Shown here piece by piece: positions 49,759 through 56,326 of a stretch of DNA of 64,000 nucleotides (position 1 is its first letter; every line of letters starts with the position of its first letter). The stretch is from positions 492,207-556,206 of the forward strand of contig NZ_LMFH01000001.1 in the NCBI RefSeq assembly GCF_001427225.1. Reading direction: 5' to 3'. Origin of the DNA: Lysobacter sp. Root494. Lineage in GTDB: Bacteria > Pseudomonadota > Gammaproteobacteria > Xanthomonadales > Xanthomonadaceae. A program made the translations under genes and the position numbers. Below the pieces are notes generated by a model, which saw only the letters and a program-made list of their open reading frames with translations, made no database searches and had not been told where the DNA came from.

Positions 49759-51138
49759 ATGACCCGCCGCTCCGGCAGCGCCGACCTCCCATTGCACGGC
49801 GGCCGCGTGCCGCGCTGGCTCGCCGATCGCATGACCCGGCTCGGCGCGGTGATAGTGGAAGCCATCGTGCTCGAATACGGACGCGACGAACTGCTGCGGC
49901 GGCTGGCGCATCCGTTCTGGTTCCAGTCCTTCGGCGCGGTGATGGGCATGGACTGGCATTCCTCGGGCATCACCACCAGTGTGATCGGCGCGCTCAAGCG
50001 CGGGCTCACGCCGCTGTCGCGCGAACTCGGCATCCATGTGTGCGGCGGACGCGGCAAGCATTCGCGCGCGACGCCGGGCGAGCTGGCCACGATCGGCGAA
50101 CGCGTCGGCTTCGACGGCAACGCGCTCGCACAGGCGAGCCGCATGGTGGCGAAGGTCGACAGCGCGGCGGTGCAGGACGGTTTCGATCTCTACCTGCACG
50201 GCTTCATCGTCACCGACGACGGCAAGTGGGTCGTCGTGCAGCAAGGCATGAACGGCGAACGCAAACAGGCGCGCCGCTATCACTGGCTGTCGGAAGGCCT
50301 GTCGAGTTTCCTCGACGATCCGCATGCGGCGGTGGATGGTCCGGGGCAGGGATGCATCATCAATCTTGCCGATGCGCGCGCGGCGAGGTCGCGTGCGGCG
50401 CAGGTCGCGATGCTGGCGGAGCTGTCGCCGGAAGCGATTGCGAAGGAATTCGTTCGCATCGAACGAAGCAAGGTCGCAGGCGCACCGGCCCCTCATCCGC
50501 CTTCGGCCCCTTCTCCTCGCAAGCGGGGAGAAGGGGAGCAGCGCGCGGATGCGATTGCGTCCGGCAGTGGCGTGCAGATGGAGCTGCTTCCCGCCGGGCC
50601 GCTGCCGCATCTCATCCTGCCCGATCACCACGACGTGCGCGCGAGCGACGTCATTGCACGCCGCCTGCACGGTGCGCTCGCGGCCGCCGCCGAATGCGGG
50701 CCGAAGGACTTCGCCGAGCTGCTGCAGGTGCCCGGCGTCGGCGCTCGCACGGTGCGCTCGCTCGCGCTGGTGGCGGAAGTGCTGCATGGCACGCCGTGCC
50801 GCTTCACCGATCCCGCGCGGTTCTCCCTCGCGCATGGCGGCAAGGACCGGCATCCGTTTCCGGTGCCGACGAAAGTGATGGACCACACCATCGGCGTACT
50901 CAAGTCCGCCGTGCGCAACGCGAAGCTGGGACGCGAGGAAGAACTCGCCGCGTTGCGCCGGCTCGACACACAGGCGCGCCGCCTGGAAAGCACCGCCGTC
51001 GGACCTTCCGTCGACGACTACATCGCCGACGAACGCCGGCATTCGCATGCATACGGCGGCCGCAGCATCTTCGGCTGGGAGCCGCCACCGGCCGAAGCGG
51101 CGCAGGACACCACCAGCAGGCGCCGGGCTCCCGGCTGA
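49759..51138 (+). CDS. DUF763 protein with an in-frame repeat insertion
   Basis: A 459-residue protein of the DUF763 family, found in many bacteria and archaea and of unknown function. It begins SGSADLPLHGGRVPRWL, the usual start, and its central domain has the HhH-like stretch LLQVPGVGARTVRSLALVAEVLHG, which suggests DNA binding. A Pro/Arg/Gly-rich stretch at about residues 244-260 (APHPPSAPSPRKRGEGEQ) is coded by an intergenic palindromic repeat (50489-50536). The neighbouring sequence on both sides stays family-like, so the insertion kept the frame. The ATG at 49759 fits relatives. Confidence 0.88.
   Translation: MTRRSGSADLPLHGGRVPRWLADRMTRLGAVIVEAIVLEYGRDELLRRLAHPFWFQSFGAVMGMDWHSSGITTSVIGALKRGLTPLSRELGIHVCGGRGKHSRATPGELATIGERVGFDGNALAQASRMVAKVDSAAVQDGFDLYLHGFIVTDDGKWVVVQQGMNGERKQARRYHWLSEGLSSFLDDPHAAVDGPGQGCIINLADARAARSRAAQVAMLAELSPEAIAKEFVRIERSKVAGAPAPHPPSAPSPRKRGEGEQRADAIASGSGVQMELLPAGPLPHLILPDHHDVRASDVIARRLHGALAAAAECGPKDFAELLQVPGVGARTVRSLALVAEVLHGTPCRFTDPARFSLAHGGKDRHPFPVPTKVMDHTIGVLKSAVRNAKLGREEELAALRRLDTQARRLESTAVGPSVDDYIADERRHSHAYGGRSIFGWEPPPAEAAQDTTSRRRAPG
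50489..50536. repeat. Palindromic intergenic-type repeat inside the DUF763 coding region
   Basis: CCCCTTCTCC-t-CGC and its partner GCGGGGAGAAGGGG (50507-50520 and 50523-50536) form 14-base arms with one mismatch, after CCCCTCATCCGCC (50489-50501). This is the same element, in the other orientation, as 31446-31495 behind nrdJ. Confidence 0.85.
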
Positions 51139-51547: not shown

Positions 51548-53023
51548 ATGACATCCCTGTCCCGTCGCAACTTCGTCCGTGGCCTGGCGATCATGCCGTT
51601 CAGCGTCTGGCTGGCGAGCAATGTCCGGGCGGATACCCCGTACATCCGCTATGACATCGCCACGCCCGAGGGTCAGGCGATGCTTGCCGTCTTCGCCGAT
51701 GGCTTCAGGCGGCTGCGGGCGCGTAGCGAGAAGGACCAGCGGAGCTGGCGCTGGCAGTGGTACACGCATTTCGTCAGTGGCGCGACCACCAAGTCGAACG
51801 AGATCACCCGGATGTTCGGCACGACGGTGAGCGACCAGAGCACGCTCGCCAACGACATGTGGAACACGTGCCAGGCGCATGCGGGGCAGAACGTCAACAA
51901 CTTCCTGCCGTGGCATCGCATGTTCGTGTTTTATCTCGAACAGATCGTGCGGCAGACCACCGGACGCATCGACTTCACGCTGCCGTACTGGAACTACACG
52001 TCCTTCGATCCCGCAAAGCGCGGTGTCGTTCCGCAGCAGTTCCGCATGTCGTCGGATCCCGTGTTCGGCCCGTTGTATCGCCCGGATCGCACCATCCTGG
52101 CGAATTCGGGACAGCCCATCCACAAGAACCAGCCGGGCGATGCGATGGAAATAGCCACCGCCATGGCGAAGACGAGTTACGTCAGCGTGTCGGGTGTGCA
52201 GGGCTTCTGCCGCGCGATCGATTCGGGCATCCACAGTCGCATCCATGTGCTGACCGGTACCGCGAAGAACATGGGTGCGGTGCCGTATGCGGGCCAGGAC
52301 GCGCTGTTCTGGGTGCATCACTCCAATATCGATCGCCTGTGGGCGAGCTGGAACCGCAACGGCGGTACCAACCCGGCGACGATCTCGTGGCTGAACACGA
52401 GCTTCGTCTTCGTCGACGGAACCGGCCAGCGCGTCAGCGCACGGATCGGGGATTTCCTCGACGCGTCATTGCTCGGCTATGGCTATGACACCTATGTCGG
52501 CCCCGATGGGCAGGAAATCATGACGACCAGCCCGGCAAGACTGCTCGCCGGTTCGGGCGCAACCGTCGGCACCGTGGCCGAGCGCATCGGCGACGCCGCT
52601 TCGGTGGAACTGGGCGAACGTCCGATCCGGACGAGCCTGAAACTCGGCGTCGGCAAGCCGCTCACCGCGCTGGACCCGAGCGGCCAGCGTCACACCTATC
52701 TCGTCGTCAAGGACCTGCACACCTGGTCGCAGCCGGAAGTGCTGTACCACCTGTATCTCACGCCGCGCGGCGGCGGGCCGAACCCCAAGACGTACATCGG
52801 CACCATCAACTTCTTCGACGCCGAGTTCCACGACCACGGCAACGGAGCGAAGGGCGATGTGCTGGGTGAGAACTTCTACAGCTTCGACGTTACCGAAGTG
52901 CTCAGGCGGCTGGTGCGCAGCGGCACCAGGCCGGGTGCGCTCGAAGTCACCTTCGTCCCAGGCGGACGGCCTACGCCAGGCGCGAAGCCGCTGGTCGGTT
53001 CGATCCAGCTGGTATGGCAGTAG
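51548..53023 (+). CDS. Tat-exported tyrosinase-like di-copper oxidase
   Basis: A 491-residue protein with a twin-arginine signal (SRRNFVRGLAIMPFSVWLAS). The type-3 copper sites are visible: CuA His74, His111 and His123 (in CQAH...NNFLPWHRM), with Cys108 placed for a possible thioether; CuB His229, His233 and His257/258 (HSRIHVL...FWVHHSNIDRLW). A C-terminal domain of about 200 residues could shield the active site, as in polyphenol oxidases. It may oxidise phenols or Tyr residues to quinones. The last bases overlap the start of an asparagine-synthetase-like gene, so the two are translationally coupled. Confidence 0.92.
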   Translation: MTSLSRRNFVRGLAIMPFSVWLASNVRADTPYIRYDIATPEGQAMLAVFADGFRRLRARSEKDQRSWRWQWYTHFVSGATTKSNEITRMFGTTVSDQSTLANDMWNTCQAHAGQNVNNFLPWHRMFVFYLEQIVRQTTGRIDFTLPYWNYTSFDPAKRGVVPQQFRMSSDPVFGPLYRPDRTILANSGQPIHKNQPGDAMEIATAMAKTSYVSVSGVQGFCRAIDSGIHSRIHVLTGTAKNMGAVPYAGQDALFWVHHSNIDRLWASWNRNGGTNPATISWLNTSFVFVDGTGQRVSARIGDFLDASLLGYGYDTYVGPDGQEIMTTSPARLLAGSGATVGTVAERIGDAASVELGERPIRTSLKLGVGKPLTALDPSGQRHTYLVVKDLHTWSQPEVLYHLYLTPRGGGPNPKTYIGTINFFDAEFHDHGNGAKGDVLGENFYSFDVTEVLRRLVRSGTRPGALEVTFVPGGRPTPGAKPLVGSIQLVWQ

Positions 53024-54558
53024 ATTTCGCGCGGATGACGACCCGTCACGCCGGCGAAGCCAACGCTGCCGTCCCGCCCATGGAGCGGACGCAGTTGCTG
53101 GTTTCGCCGTTCTACGGCACGCCCGATGTCTCGCATCTGCAGGTGCACAGTCCGTCGCTGGACGAAACATCGCTGGCTGATCTTTTGCGCAATGGCTTCG
53201 TCTATCCACCGTATTCGATCTACGAAAACGTGCGGTTGTTCAGTTGCGGCTTCGACCCGAGCCAGGACCTGTTCGAACAGGCGCATTACCAGCCGATCTT
53301 CCGCGACAGCCGGCATTCGCATGAGCATGCCGACGACCGCCACCACGACTGGGTTGGCGAATACCACGAGCGGCTGTGCGCGTCGCTGAGAACCGCAACC
53401 GAAAACATGCGCGCGCCGTGGCTGCTGCAAAGCGGCGGCAAGGATTCGACCTCGCTTGCGATTGCAGCGAGCGATGCGCGTCCCGACACGGCGTGCCTTA
53501 CGTACCTGGGCGGACAGGAGGAGAACGAAGTCGATTCGGCGCGCCAGGTCGCCACGCAACTCGGCCTTCGCCACGAGGCGCTGGTCTGCGACGTCGACCG
53601 CGCGTACGACCGCTATCTCGCGCTCGTGCCGCGGATGAAACTGCTGACCGCCGACTTCGCGCTGCTTTCGTACGCGGACCTGGCGACGGAAATCTCGCGC
53701 TGCGGTGGCGATGGCATCCTCGACGGCATGGGCTCGGACGTCTACCTGGGCGTGCCCGCGAACTGGGCCAAGCGCGCGCTGCGCATGCTCGCGATGAGCG
53801 TGCACCTGCCGGACTTCCTGCACGAGGCGGAATGGCTGGGTTCCAACTTCAAGCTCGCCTACCTGATCTCGACGCTGCAGATGAATCCGTTCGAGCGTGG
53901 CTTCCCCGGCTCGCGCTTCACCGACGCGGAGGTGGATGCGCTGTTCGGGCGCGAGATCGCCGGGCGTTCGAAGGAACGGCTGTCGCGCTTCATTCCTGCG
54001 TTCGCGCAGGCGTCCAATCTCGAGGAGCAGTTGTCGATCACGCTCGACATCATGTCGTGCGCCGGTGGCATGGCGAAGGGCCTGTACACGTCGGCAGCGC
54101 TTTCGTTGCCCGTGCGTTACCCGTATTGCGACCAGCCATTGCGCGACTGGCTGGCGTGGAAAGTGCCGCCGGAGCTGCGCATGGACACGCGCAAGGGCAT
54201 CAGCAAGGTGCTGGTACGCGAACACATCGGGCGGCGTTTCGCGAGCCTGCCGTATGTGCAGGCCAAGGGCAGCTTCCGCTTCAACCTGCGCGAGCTCGCG
54301 CGCCGTCGCTTCGAACACGTGTACGACTATTCGCTGCGCCTGCGCGACGTGCTGCCCGGTGCCCCGGCGTGGCTCGAGCGCCATCGCCAGCGGCTGGACA
54401 ACAAGTACGACGCATCGAAGTTCTACCTGCTCGCGGTCGTGCTGCCGTGGCTCGATCACCATTCCGCGCTGGCCGTTTCCATACGTGAGGAGCGAGTGGC
54501 AGCACAAGGCGGCGCGGGTTTTGTCGCCGACCCCGAGCGACAGGTGGCCGCCCGTTGA
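53014..54558 (+). CDS. Asparagine-synthetase-like ATP-dependent amide ligase without glutaminase domain
   Basis: A 514-residue protein. The PP-loop SGGKDS is at residues 140-145. Further AS motifs are GGQEENEVDSARQVATQLGLRHE and DGILDGMGSDVYLG (237-246). The N-terminal 120 residues hold a remnant-like region (LLRNGFVYPPYSIYENVRLFSCGFDP) but no N-terminal Cys of the Ntn glutaminase fold. It therefore should adenylate a carboxylate and pass it to an amine other than glutamine-derived ammonia, as do beta-lactam synthetases and lasso-peptide cyclases. ATG 53014 overlaps the tyrosinase stop by ten bases; a second ATG at 53035 is the alternative. It is most likely co-translated with the tyrosinase. 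Confidence 0.88.
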   Translation: MAVDFARMTTRHAGEANAAVPPMERTQLLVSPFYGTPDVSHLQVHSPSLDETSLADLLRNGFVYPPYSIYENVRLFSCGFDPSQDLFEQAHYQPIFRDSRHSHEHADDRHHDWVGEYHERLCASLRTATENMRAPWLLQSGGKDSTSLAIAASDARPDTACLTYLGGQEENEVDSARQVATQLGLRHEALVCDVDRAYDRYLALVPRMKLLTADFALLSYADLATEISRCGGDGILDGMGSDVYLGVPANWAKRALRMLAMSVHLPDFLHEAEWLGSNFKLAYLISTLQMNPFERGFPGSRFTDAEVDALFGREIAGRSKERLSRFIPAFAQASNLEEQLSITLDIMSCAGGMAKGLYTSAALSLPVRYPYCDQPLRDWLAWKVPPELRMDTRKGISKVLVREHIGRRFASLPYVQAKGSFRFNLRELARRRFEHVYDYSLRLRDVLPGAPAWLERHRQRLDNKYDASKFYLLAVVLPWLDHHSALAVSIREERVAAQGGAGFVADPERQVAAR

Positions 54559-54609
54559 GCCAATCCCCTATGCCGGCGATCATCGGCGCACGAGAGGGTT
54601 GCAAAACAC

Positions 54610-55089
54610 ATGGAACATCCAGGCAATGCGTCCACGCATTCACAGCCGGCCGGTCTCGGGCCCTACCGGGCGCTGCTGGGAATGACCGTGCTGTCGTACA
54701 TCGCGATGTACCTGCTGATGTACGCCATGGTCGATCGCTGGAACAACGTGTTCAACAACGTCAACCAGCTCTACATGGCGGGCCTGATGGCGTCGCCGAT
54801 GGCGTTGATCGAGCTCGTGCTCATGCGCGGCATGTATCGCAACCGCCTGCTCAATGCCGCGATAGCGATCACCGCGCTGCTGTTGATGCTGCTGTGCTGG
54901 ATCGGGATACGGACGCAGGCGGCAGTCACCGACCAGCAATTCGTGCGCTCGATGATTCCGCATCACGCCGGCGCCATCCTGATGTGCGGGAAGAACCGGC
55001 TGCGCGATCCTGACCTGCAGCAGCTTTGTCGCGAGATCGTGCAGTCGCAGCAGGCGGAGATCGAACGGATGGAGGCGGAGCTGCGATAG
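54610..55089 (+). CDS. Membrane DUF305 protein
   Basis: A 159-residue protein with three membrane segments (about residues 22-40, 57-75 and 78-97). A soluble tail follows with SMIPHHAGAILMCGKNRLRDPDL...EIVQSQQAEIERMEAEL. The HHAGAI...Q..EI..M pattern is the DUF305 motif, whose His and Met residues can bind metals. DUF305 proteins are often near copper-handling genes, which fits the copper-dependent tyrosinase two genes upstream on the same strand, 51 bases after the ligase gene. Could be a copper-binding partner (inference). Confidence 0.85.
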   Translation: MEHPGNASTHSQPAGLGPYRALLGMTVLSYIAMYLLMYAMVDRWNNVFNNVNQLYMAGLMASPMALIELVLMRGMYRNRLLNAAIAITALLLMLLCWIGIRTQAAVTDQQFVRSMIPHHAGAILMCGKNRLRDPDLQQLCREIVQSQQAEIERMEAELR

Positions 55090-55148
55090 CCCTGCTGGCG
55101 GTTCCGCGCGCCCGTGGACAGCGTGACCGCGAATGCACGCACAAATAA

Positions 55149-55178
55149 AAAGGGACGAAGCCATGGCTTCGTCCCTTT
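55149..55178 (-). terminator. Perfect 15-bp palindrome, terminator of ald
   Basis: AAAGGGACGAAGCCA / TGGCTTCGTCCCTTT without a loop. On the minus strand it is followed by TTATTTGTG. It lies 29 bases after the ald stop codon (55208). Also a possible end for the DUF305 unit on the plus strand (T-run TTTCG). Confidence 0.85.
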
Positions 55179-55207
55179 CGTGTTGCGCTGTAGCCGCGTG
55201 TGTTGGC

Positions 55208-56326
55208 TTACAGCCCGATCGCCTTCTCCGCCGGCACGTACGGCAGGTTGTGCGCCTGCGCGACGGGTTCGCAGGTGATCTGGCCTTCCGACACATTGAG
55301 GCCGTTGCGCAGGTGCACGTCCTGCGCCAGCGCCTTCTTCCAGCCGTTGTTGGCCAGCGCGAGGGTGAAGGGCAGGGTGACGCTGTTGAGCGCGAAGGTG
55401 GACGTGCGCGCAACCGCGCCCGGCATGTTCGCCACGCAGTAGTGCACGACGCCATCGACGACGTACGTCGGGTCGGCATGCGTGGTGGCGTGCGAGGTTT
55501 CCACGCAGCCGCCCTGGTCGATGGCGACGTCGACGATCACCGAGCCCGGCTTCATCGTGCGCACCATGTCGTGGGTCACCAGCTTCGGCGCGGCGGCGCC
55601 CGGGACCAGCACGGTGCCGATCAGCAGGTCGGCGCGGCGGACGAGTTCCTCGATCGCCGAGCGGGTGGAGAACACGGTCGAGATCGACGTGCCGAACTGC
55701 GCAGCCAGGCGCTTGAGTGCATCGGCCGAACGGTCGACGACCGTGACCTGCGCACCCATGCCCACGGCAATCGTGGCTGCATGCGTGCCGGACACGCCGC
55801 CGCCGAGGATCACGACTTCGGCAGCCGGTACGCCGGGAACGCCGCCCAGGAGGACGCCGCGGCCGCCCTGGGCCTTCTCCAGCGCGTGCGCACCGACCTG
55901 CGGGGCGAGGCGGCCGGCGACTTCGGACATCGGGGTGAGCAGCGGCAGCGAGCCGTTCGGCGCCGTGACGGTTTCGTACGCAATGCAGATGGCGCCCGAA
56001 TCGATCAGGTCGCGCGTCTGCGGCGCGTCGGGGGCGAGGTGCAGGTAGGTGAAGAGGATCTGGCCCTGGCGCAGCTTCCTGCGCTCCTCGGCCTGGGGTT
56101 CCTTCACCTTCACGACCATGTCGGCCTCGGCGAAGATCTGGTCGGCACTGTCGACCATCTTCGCGCCGGCAGCGACGTAGTCGGCGTCGGTCAGGCCCGC
56201 GCCGAGGCCGGCGCCGGTCTGGACCAGCACTTCATGGCCGTGGTGCACGAGTTCGAGCACGGACGACGGCACCAGGCCGACGCGGTACTCGTGGATCTTG
56301 ATTTCCTTCGGTACGCCGATACGCAT
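55208..56326 (-). CDS. ald: Alanine dehydrogenase
   Basis: Converts L-alanine to pyruvate and ammonia with NAD. It has 372 residues, the normal length. The substrate pocket residues are present: Arg15 (EYRVGL), Lys in VVKVKEPQ and His in LFTYLHLA. The NAD-binding fold starts at VVILGGGVSGTHAATIAVGMGA. Catalytic Asp in VDVAIDQGG is also present. It is divergent from an Lrp-type regulator (56480), the typical AldR/Lrp arrangement that induces ald by alanine. ATG 56326. Confidence 0.97.
   Translation of the reverse strand: MRIGVPKEIKIHEYRVGLVPSSVLELVHHGHEVLVQTGAGLGAGLTDADYVAAGAKMVDSADQIFAEADMVVKVKEPQAEERRKLRQGQILFTYLHLAPDAPQTRDLIDSGAICIAYETVTAPNGSLPLLTPMSEVAGRLAPQVGAHALEKAQGGRGVLLGGVPGVPAAEVVILGGGVSGTHAATIAVGMGAQVTVVDRSADALKRLAAQFGTSISTVFSTRSAIEELVRRADLLIGTVLVPGAAAPKLVTHDMVRTMKPGSVIVDVAIDQGGCVETSHATTHADPTYVVDGVVHYCVANMPGAVARTSTFALNSVTLPFTLALANNGWKKALAQDVHLRNGLNVSEGQITCEPVAQAHNLPYVPAEKAIGL

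Follow-up and report, generated by a model that had tools for sequence, protein, structure and literature searches.

The window analysed here, a stretch of 64,000 nucleotides from Lysobacter sp. Root494, contains a gene for a putative exported tyrosinase, followed by a gene for an asparagine-synthetase-like ligase that has no glutaminase domain and a gene for a DUF305-type protein (Table 1). The locus raises the question of whether a copper oxidase and an amide-forming ligase have become partners in one pathway, and of which neighbouring genes belong with them. The original prediction was of a three-gene modification or natural-product system that might oxidise and cross-link a peptide or phenolic amine.

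Table 1. Features of the tyrosinase-ligase locus, in window coordinates.
Feature	Position	Strand	Basis
Tyrosinase / polyphenol oxidase, Tat-type, 491 aa, C-terminal extension	51548..53023	+	Pfam Tyrosinase, PPO1_DWL
Asn-synthetase-like ligase without glutaminase	53080..54558, longest frame from 53014	+	Pfam Asn_synthase; alignment of 16 relatives
Remnant of the part of AsnB that directly precedes its synthetase domain (ligase residues 48-80)	53155..53253	+	profile alignment
DUF305-type protein	54610..55089	+	Pfam DUF305, E 2.7e-12; 51 bases downstream of ligase
14-pair stem with T run	55148..55179	. (listed on -)	terminator scan, after the three genes

The tyrosinase and the ligase

The tyrosinase gene is a real gene that keeps the recognised motifs of its family, and phenol oxidation is its predicted activity. 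Its product has the central tyrosinase domain (Pfam Tyrosinase, E 1.5e-27) and PPO1_DWL (E 6.1e-08), and residues 49-475 match the structure 8b74 (E 2.5e-32). Six histidines that we take, from the order of the motifs, to be the copper ligands are present, five of them (H74, H123, H229, H233, H257) invariant in all 29 aligned tyrosinases and the sixth (H111) found in 26. A twin-arginine motif at the start (SRRNFVRG, read by eye from the sequence) agrees with the Tat export originally proposed. The residue following the first CuB histidine, Asn in Frateuria enzymes, is Ser in the window tyrosinase, which could signal weak monophenolase activity.

The ligase, 514 aa in its longest frame, has the PP-loop synthetase domain of the PF00733 superfamily (Asn_synthase, 54.5 bits against a cut-off of 21) and retains, as had been noted, the motifs SGGKDS (residues 140-145) and DGMGSDVYLG (residues 237-246). 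SGGKDS, D237, D242, K355, K398 and R402 are invariant in all 77 ligases compared. Leu, Met or Ile occupies position 239 in 76 of these, against Glu (GEG) in the AsnB of the same genome, so the catalysis of the ligase may differ from that of AsnB. The ten-base overlap with the tyrosinase stop, from which translational coupling had been proposed, exists for the longest frame only (ATG 53014), and this start is doubtful. Because further in-frame ATGs occur at 53035 and 53080, homology to relatives begins at residue 23 (ATG 53080), and the two genes are separated by about 100 bases and by at least about 157 bases at two other loci, translational coupling is neither established nor conserved.

The absence of a glutaminase domain is a property of the family: no glutaminase match was found in the ligase or in any of 17 relatives scanned (17/17), compared with GATase_7 at E 2.6e-45 in the AsnB of the same genome. 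In a profile alignment, the ligase from residue 48 on pairs with that AsnB from its residue 171 on. The ligase lacks the N-terminal glutaminase domain of AsnB and scores 41.5 bits against TIGR01536, below the cut-off of 267.1; two other genes in the genome exceed this cut-off, which sets the ligase apart from the ordinary AsnB. The proviso that it might be an AsnB damaged or deprived of its glutaminase by annotation or assembly error is rejected on account of these separate genes, the profile alignment and the uniform absence among relatives. One structural match, to 1ct9_D, spans chain residues 8-509, a range that states no more than where the aligned part starts and stops.

A predicted model of the ligase (pLDDT 80.8, pTM 0.83) matches TsnB9 (Z 21.2), human ASNS (19.1), carbapenam synthetase (18.4) and beta-lactam synthetase (18.1), in a VIA-align list that is a second look at Foldseek hits only. 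Beta-lactam and carbapenam synthetases retain an N-terminal glutaminase-like domain, which the ligase does not have; the model aligns to their chains only from residue ~85-133 onward, leaving ~85-130 extra N-terminal residues. The description of the ligase as having the design of lasso-peptide and beta-lactam-type cyclases is therefore inaccurate, as is the name B-protein used with it, the lasso-peptide cyclase being the C protein.

Distribution of the ligase family and its pairing with ring oxidases

The ligase protein alone found no relative as a query, and a loose first look at 321 genomes from the class, few of them Xanthomonadales, found only the window's own genome at E 1e-20. A profile search of genome contigs with an alignment of the family (A1) found 58 ligase loci. 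In a tree of 77 ligases, from which two truncated ones (L149, L151) were left out, 62 belong to exopolysaccharide-type clusters, nine of them assigned by hand because EpsG, GT1 or a ligase lies in front and there is no Wzc within 12 kb. The other 15 comprise three behind a tyrosinase, four behind a kynurenine 3-monooxygenase (KMO), including one (L138) whose KMO is visible at the locus but fell outside a 400-base limit used in the sorting, four behind a family-2 glycosyltransferase and four with nothing recognised. The family mostly sits in Wzc-type exopolysaccharide operons of Xanthomonadales, and the window genome itself holds two more copies in such operons.

The neighbourhood of tyrosinase and ligase is conserved, as predicted, in the form of a two-gene unit. 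It recurs in Vulcaniibacterium tengchongense and a Luteimonas MAG (three genomes in total), with order and strand the same in three genera at ~62-68% protein identity and with different flanks. The three paired ligases form one clade (SH-aLRT 100), and the paired tyrosinases share one supported clade with those of a genome (G070) in which three related tyrosinases occur without a ligase; the pairing looks like one evolutionary event. Of 12 genomes that carry a close tyrosinase, 11 have the ligase, versus 36/297 overall; this count leaves out two ligase-free genomes (G114, G188) whose tyrosinases are distant (31-33% identity), and becomes 11/14 with them. Counted by genus, the ligase is present in 6/7 tyrosinase genera versus 12/54 (p about 2e-4, or 9e-4 when the window's genus is left out). 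Nine other sample genomes have both genes, with the tyrosinases either on a different contig or at least about 230 kb from the ligase; in one of these, which was scanned, the tyrosinase is beside dnaK, dapB and carB. Two Frateuria species have a different Tat-type tyrosinase inside a ligase-holding cluster.

In Dyella, another clade of ligases is located behind a second KMO (five genomes). The four genomes with the pair in which KMO was counted all have two copies of it, versus one copy in both genomes without the pair (2/2); the fifth genome of the same genus also has the pair, and one of the five ligases of the clade (L147) has no KMO in front. This is an independent case, since these ligases lie elsewhere in the tree from the tyrosinase-paired clade and the KMO is an extra copy, and it shows that stray ligase copies joined an aromatic ring oxidase at least twice, independently. 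Clade-specific positions are uninformative, being three in the tyrosinase clade (153, 245, 340) and none in the KMO clade.

Neighbouring genes

The DUF305-type gene is present as predicted (47.4 bits against the Pfam cut-off of 27; CopM model of NCBIfam, 49.5 bits, below its cut-off of 90) and is possibly co-transcribed at this locus. It is absent from both other tyrosinase-ligase pairs, so it lies outside the conserved unit, and its supposed role as a partner of the pair is rejected. The stem that follows the three genes adjoins a convergent gene (55208-56326) and is one of four sites in the terminator scan, for which shuffles gave a mean of 2.9 (sd 1.9); the three remaining stems are 5-6 pairs long.

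Apart from the pair, the three tyrosinase loci have no gene in common over the stretches compared (only 7.3 kb at one locus, L097). The conserved short gene that had been suggested as a precursor did not emerge from a comparison of 72 short frames (15 codons or longer) in nine stretches of the three loci (best match E 0.017), and no leader peptidase was found among four window proteins scanned (DUF763, tyrosinase, ligase and DUF305). Among these immediate neighbours, the precursor gene and leader peptidase that accompany the cyclase of a lasso system are missing. A QueC-like PP-loop protein (c33), considered as a third component, is present in 34/36 ligase genomes of the family sample and 37/297 overall. 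It was rejected as a general partner on being found, in a search without its own positive control, in 0/17 further ligase-locus genomes (13 Rhodanobacteraceae, V. tengchongense, Luteimonas ES-bin-219, Lysobacter profundi and one Lysobacterales MAG), of which V. tengchongense and L. profundi are probably already negatives of the family sample. In G070, the c33 gene sits between two tyrosinases.

Possible functions of the pair

The reading preferred here, at a probability of roughly 0.35, is that tyrosinase and ligase form a functional unit of two genes by which an aromatic amide is made, exported and then oxidised outside the cytosol, a modified form of the predicted combination of copper oxidation and amide formation. 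The ligase would derive from the exopolysaccharide-operon family, itself descended from an AsnB-like enzyme by loss of the glutaminase domain. Most likely cytosolic, it would activate a carboxylate with ATP as an adenylate and, because it has no glutamine-hydrolysing domain, transfer a free amine or ammonia to it. In the window lineage, an aromatic amine (or acid) is the probable substrate. The resulting amide, borne by a small molecule or by a precursor of the polysaccharide, would be exported, and the tyrosinase may turn the phenol or catechol ring of the amide into a reactive quinone that yields pigment or cross-links. This reading is favoured by the retention of the pair in three genomes, the co-occurrence of the two genes, the KMO case, the Frateuria clusters and the precedent of WbpS/PGN_1234 for amidation of a sugar acid. 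Against it stand the single origin of the pairing, the ligase-free G070, the nine genomes with widely separated genes, L147, the changed residue at position 239, the Ser after the first CuB histidine and the lack of a sugar-acid-making enzyme among ten operon-type proteins scanned.

Several alternatives were weighed. It is a realistic possibility, though a doubtful one, that the ligase acts like WbpS, making a uronamide from an exopolysaccharide uronic acid and ammonia, and that the tyrosinase makes ordinary melanin, the adjacency of the two genes reflecting no more than a common role at the cell surface and joint expression. The exopolysaccharide context of 62/77 ligases fits this, as do a weak match to the XrtA/PEP-CTERM amidotransferase model TIGR03108 (E 4.4e-07; 29 bits against a cut-off of 816.9), the amidation of a sugar acid to a uronamide by the asparagine-synthetase-like WbpS/PGN_1234 in Porphyromonas, as far as the available text of PMC7468200 goes, and the influence of a Rubrivivax wbpS-like gene on growth mode and colony form (available part of PMC3684757). 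It leaves the second stray clade, behind KMO, unexplained, and no sugar-acid-making enzyme or nucleotide-sugar dehydrogenase was found among ten operon-type proteins scanned; the description of P. aeruginosa WbpS as a glutamine amidotransferase, in contrast to the glutaminase-less window family, also argues against it. There is a smaller chance that the pair makes a diffusible aromatic amide of catechol or aminophenol type, with no polysaccharide involved, which the tyrosinase would mature once it has left the cytosol, in the manner of the Tat-exported PvdP acting on pyoverdine. The tyrosinase- and KMO-paired ligases do lie outside exopolysaccharide operons, and a relative (SaHAT) of the best structural match, TsnB9, activates benzoic acid with ATP (in the accessible portion of PMC13418202), but four other stray ligases are behind a glycosyltransferase and the three tyrosinase loci share no further gene in the stretches compared.

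A passive neighbourhood, in which a stray exopolysaccharide ligase landed once behind a tyrosinase and stayed without shared function, would account for the single event, the unconserved intergenic gap and the tyrosinases of G070 that have no ligase; it is improbable given that order and strand are kept in three genera at that level of divergence while the flanks differ, and that a similar pairing arose separately with KMO. Very improbable indeed is a RiPP, lasso-type or beta-lactam-type system in which the peptide product of a neighbouring gene is cyclised or cross-linked by the ligase: the predicted fold is of the same family as beta-lactam and carbapenam synthetases and the macrolactam cyclase model NF033561 gives a weak hit (E 6.5e-04), but neither a conserved short frame nor a leader peptidase was found in the stretches and proteins scanned, and the nearest relatives point to exopolysaccharide operons and not RiPP clusters. 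Lasso- or beta-lactam-type cyclisation is thus unlikely.

The preferred reading of a two-gene unit extends, as a distinctly speculative proposal, to a general practice in Xanthomonadales of tethering aromatic amines by amide bonds to exported polysaccharide, which pairs with a ring oxidase would harden or pigment by quinone chemistry; the amines might be tyrosine- or dopamine-like here and 3-hydroxykynurenine-like in Dyella. Aromatic cross-linking of surface polymers is well known in animals and plants, and a search of open-licence literature found no bacterial example with this gene pair. If true, the proposal would be a bacterial counterpart of the sclerotisation of insect cuticle or mussel glue. 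The analysis also delimits a family of amide ligases that lack the glutaminase domain, found here in Xanthomonadales only; together with the independent pairings of stray members, this leads to a testable prediction of aromatic decoration and cross-linking on bacterial surface polymers.

Comparison with known systems

AsnB and human ASNS resemble the ligase in the synthetase domain, the SGGxDS loop and a Lys near the C-terminal end (K398 aligns with the K of EKYLLRR in the same-genome AsnB), and AsnB differs in its glutaminase domain and the GEG glutamate. Beta-lactam and carbapenam synthetases share the synthetase-domain fold with the predicted model, the difference being their additional N-terminal domain. 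TsnB9 (7ylz), a hydroxyamidotransferase, is the best match of the model over 388 residues, but at 17% identity, and belongs to an actinobacterial hydroxamate pathway according to the available text of PMC13418202. Enzymes of its type transfer a hydroxylamino group to a carboxylate and have amidooxygenase partner genes; the likeness of the ligase to them is structural. WbpS (PGN_1234) and TIGR03108 are like the window family in being asparagine-synthetase-like enzymes at polysaccharide loci; the P. aeruginosa WbpS differs in being described as a glutamine amidotransferase (accessible part of PMC3684757). HcTyr1 of Hahella (8B74) is the closest solved bacterial relative of the tyrosinase, nearly full length, and is active on L-tyrosine and L-DOPA; a ligase partner is not mentioned in the available text of PMC11609597. 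The Dyella protein before the sister ligase matches KMO (PDB 5fn0 and others; E 6e-129 to 5fn0); it is a flavin enzyme unrelated to tyrosinase and occurs in other species, but it is an aromatic ring hydroxylase in front of a member of the same ligase family.

The tyrosinase-ligase gene pair

A tyrosinase gene is followed on the same strand by the gene of an asparagine-synthetase-like amide ligase in three genomes, those of Lysobacter sp. Root494 (3.4 Mb), Vulcaniibacterium tengchongense (loci L146 and L036 of one contig) and Luteimonas ES-bin-219 (L097), and the two-gene core of the original prediction is thus real and modestly conserved. The flanking genes differ among the three: the DUF305-type protein that had been proposed as a third member is absent from the other two loci, where the pair is followed by a RecQ-type helicase gene on the opposite strand (Luteimonas) or by a DUF4124 gene (V. 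tengchongense). The three paired ligases form one clade (SH-aLRT 100 in a quick tree without bootstrap), and the paired tyrosinases share a clade (99/97) with those of G070, a genome that has no ligase; the pairing therefore seems to have arisen in a single ancient event and to have been lost or rearranged once.

The ten-base overlap from which translational coupling had been proposed exists if the ligase starts at ATG 53014, but the alignment of its relatives begins at residue 23, which is ATG 53080. In the other two pairs the gap between the frames is about 100 bases in one and at least about 157 in the other, and coupling is unproven. A promoter scan found no sigma-70-like site in this region, an absence that says little. 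The DUF763 gene (49759-51138) contains, with its frame unbroken, a 28-base stretch with complementary arms (50508-50535); a search of the window that allowed up to 3 mismatches gave this single occurrence.

Features of the window and of related loci
Feature	Location	Strand or orientation	Basis or context
Tyrosinase	51548-53023	+	Pfam
Asparagine-synthetase-like ligase	end 54558	+	Pfam Asn_synthase
DUF305-type protein	54610-55089	+	Pfam
Long stem terminator	55148-55179		terminator scan; downstream of DUF305-type gene, ahead of convergent gene
Convergent gene	55208-56326	opposite to three-gene run	
Two tandem exopolysaccharide-type ligases, Root494 (G000)	C5:924828-927696		adjoin Wzc and fused epimerase
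QueC-like PP-loop protein, about 270 aa	G000:C5:133628-134344 (L203:7596-8426); L083:10411-11229		
KMO (second copy), Dyella and G494	L138:7172-8629; L139:7490-8950; L140:7438-8895; L154:7232-8767; also L175		directly ahead of ligase
Divergent Tat-type tyrosinases, Frateuria terrea and F. flava	L142:10120-11628 and L153:16470-17921		

Tyrosinase and ligase tend to occur in the same genomes. In the 297-genome family sample, a tyrosinase was found at E 1e-20 in 14 genomes and a close one in 12, of which 11 have the ligase, versus 36/297 overall; both genomes with a distant tyrosinase lack it. Counted by genus, which corrects only partially for the inflation of genome-level co-occurrence by shared ancestry, the figures are 6/7 versus 12/54 (hypergeometric 2e-4, or 9e-4 minus the window's genus). 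In the remaining nine genomes with a tyrosinase and a ligase, the two are on separate contigs or at least about 230 kb distant from each other.

Properties of the two enzymes

The tyrosinase matches Pfam Tyrosinase and PPO1_DWL, and its N-terminal SRRNFVRG resembles a twin-arginine motif. Five copper histidines are kept in 29/29 aligned relatives and H111 in 26, the exceptions being three distant tyrosinases (L094, L142, L153) with different spacing.

The sole domain of the ligase above the Pfam cut-off is Asn_synthase, and none of 17 relatives scanned gave a glutaminase match. Residues 48-80 align with the same genome's AsnB, a class II asparagine synthetase, from residue 171, in the stretch preceding the synthetase domain, which suggests a family derived from an AsnB-like enzyme by loss of its first ~170 residues. 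That the ligase is simply the ordinary AsnB of Root494 was ruled out, since two further genes exceed the AsnB cut-off. SGGKDS, D237, D242, K355, K398 and R402 are invariant across 77 relatives; 76 of them carry Leu, Met or Ile at position 239, the equivalent of a Glu in AsnB. The closest structural match to an AlphaFold model (pLDDT 80.8, pTM 0.83) is the hydroxyamidotransferase TsnB9 (Z 21.2, rmsd 3.8 over 388), followed by the nearly tied human ASNS (Z 19.1, rmsd 4.5 over 321), carbapenam synthetase (Z 18.4, rmsd 3.9 over 308) and beta-lactam synthetase (Z 18.1, rmsd 4.3 over 327).

Genomic contexts of the ligase family

The ligase, found in 30/398 genomes sampled from the order with a Dyella query, was confined in a class sample of 321 genomes to the window's own. 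A named-genome scan gave 58 loci, all in Xanthomonadales save those of one MAG. This MAG (L123), which bears the label Eremiobacteraeota, carries two ligases that group within Rhodanobacteraceae, along with an exopolysaccharide cluster, and is perhaps mis-binned. Exopolysaccharide-type clusters hold 62 of the 77 ligases in the tree, 53 assigned by a neighbourhood rule and nine, with no Wzc within 12 kb, by hand from EpsG, GT1 or ligase neighbours. The cluster proteins scanned include a Wzc-type kinase, a fused glycosyltransferase/UDP-GlcNAc 2-epimerase, a low-molecular-weight phosphatase, beta-helix proteins, EpsG, two kinds of glycosyltransferase and a flippase-like protein slightly under the Pfam cut-off (27.7 vs 28.2 bits). 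In Lysobacter sp. M2-1 (L045:9060-12038; also L103) two tandem ligases are joined in one continuous 992-codon frame.

Outside these clusters, the ligase of four named Dyella genomes directly follows a kynurenine 3-monooxygenase (KMO; the L139 copy matches solved KMOs at E about 1e-129), and G494, of the same genus group, is a fifth genome with this pair. Each of these four has two KMOs, and two Dyella genomes without the pair have one; the KMO remote from the ligase has similar neighbours, judged by eye, in the five genomes compared. KMO-paired ligases form a clade that includes L147, which has no KMO ahead, and this pairing is independent of that with tyrosinase. The Frateuria tyrosinases have beta-helix genes around them and are only a few kilobases away from the ligase, and a family-2 glycosyltransferase precedes four more stray ligases.

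A QueC-like protein with a TGGWDST motif and a Cys cluster, slightly under the Pfam QueC cut-off, occurs in 34 of the 36 family-sample genomes that have the ligase versus 37/297 overall, and in none of 17 ligase-bearing genomes examined afterwards; in G070 its gene lies between two tyrosinases. Next to it in several genomes (L203:4663-7372) are a class-III aminotransferase and an iron-containing redox enzyme whose fold is haem-oxygenase-like (Haem_oxygenas_2, with a weak resemblance to BesC).

Possible functions

Kinship, motifs and pairing are observed, and the chemistry is inferred from them. Asn_synthase domains adenylate a carboxylate and then transfer nitrogen, and tyrosinases produce o-quinones. 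Lacking a glutaminase, the ligase would take its nitrogen from a free amine or ammonia, and the fact that it has paired more than once with enzymes that oxidise aromatic compounds points to an aromatic partner. The ligase would act in the cytosol and the tyrosinase after export. We give this reading a probability of roughly 0.35. A plain uronamide role beside an unconnected melanin enzyme, only slightly less probable, would suit the many ligases in exopolysaccharide clusters but leaves the KMO parallel unexplained. A small aromatic metabolite as the product, which the position of the tyrosinase- and KMO-paired ligases outside the exopolysaccharide operon would fit, is rather unlikely. Chance neighbourhood, to which the single pairing event and the ligase-free G070 might point, is improbable given the unchanged gene order and strand amid differing flanks. 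A RiPP-type system, suggested by the fold shared with beta-lactam synthetase, is very improbable, and both the DUF305 gene as a third member and the proposed peptide drop out.

No earlier description of the tyrosinase-ligase unit was found in the open-licence literature searched; new here are the KMO parallel and the ligase's connection with exopolysaccharide operons. Among solved bacterial structures that match the tyrosinase over nearly its full length, the best is HcTyr1 of Hahella (8b74), an enzyme that acts on L-tyrosine and L-DOPA (PMC11609597). WbpS, which is likewise asparagine-synthetase-like, converts a glycan sugar into its uronamide (PMC7468200).
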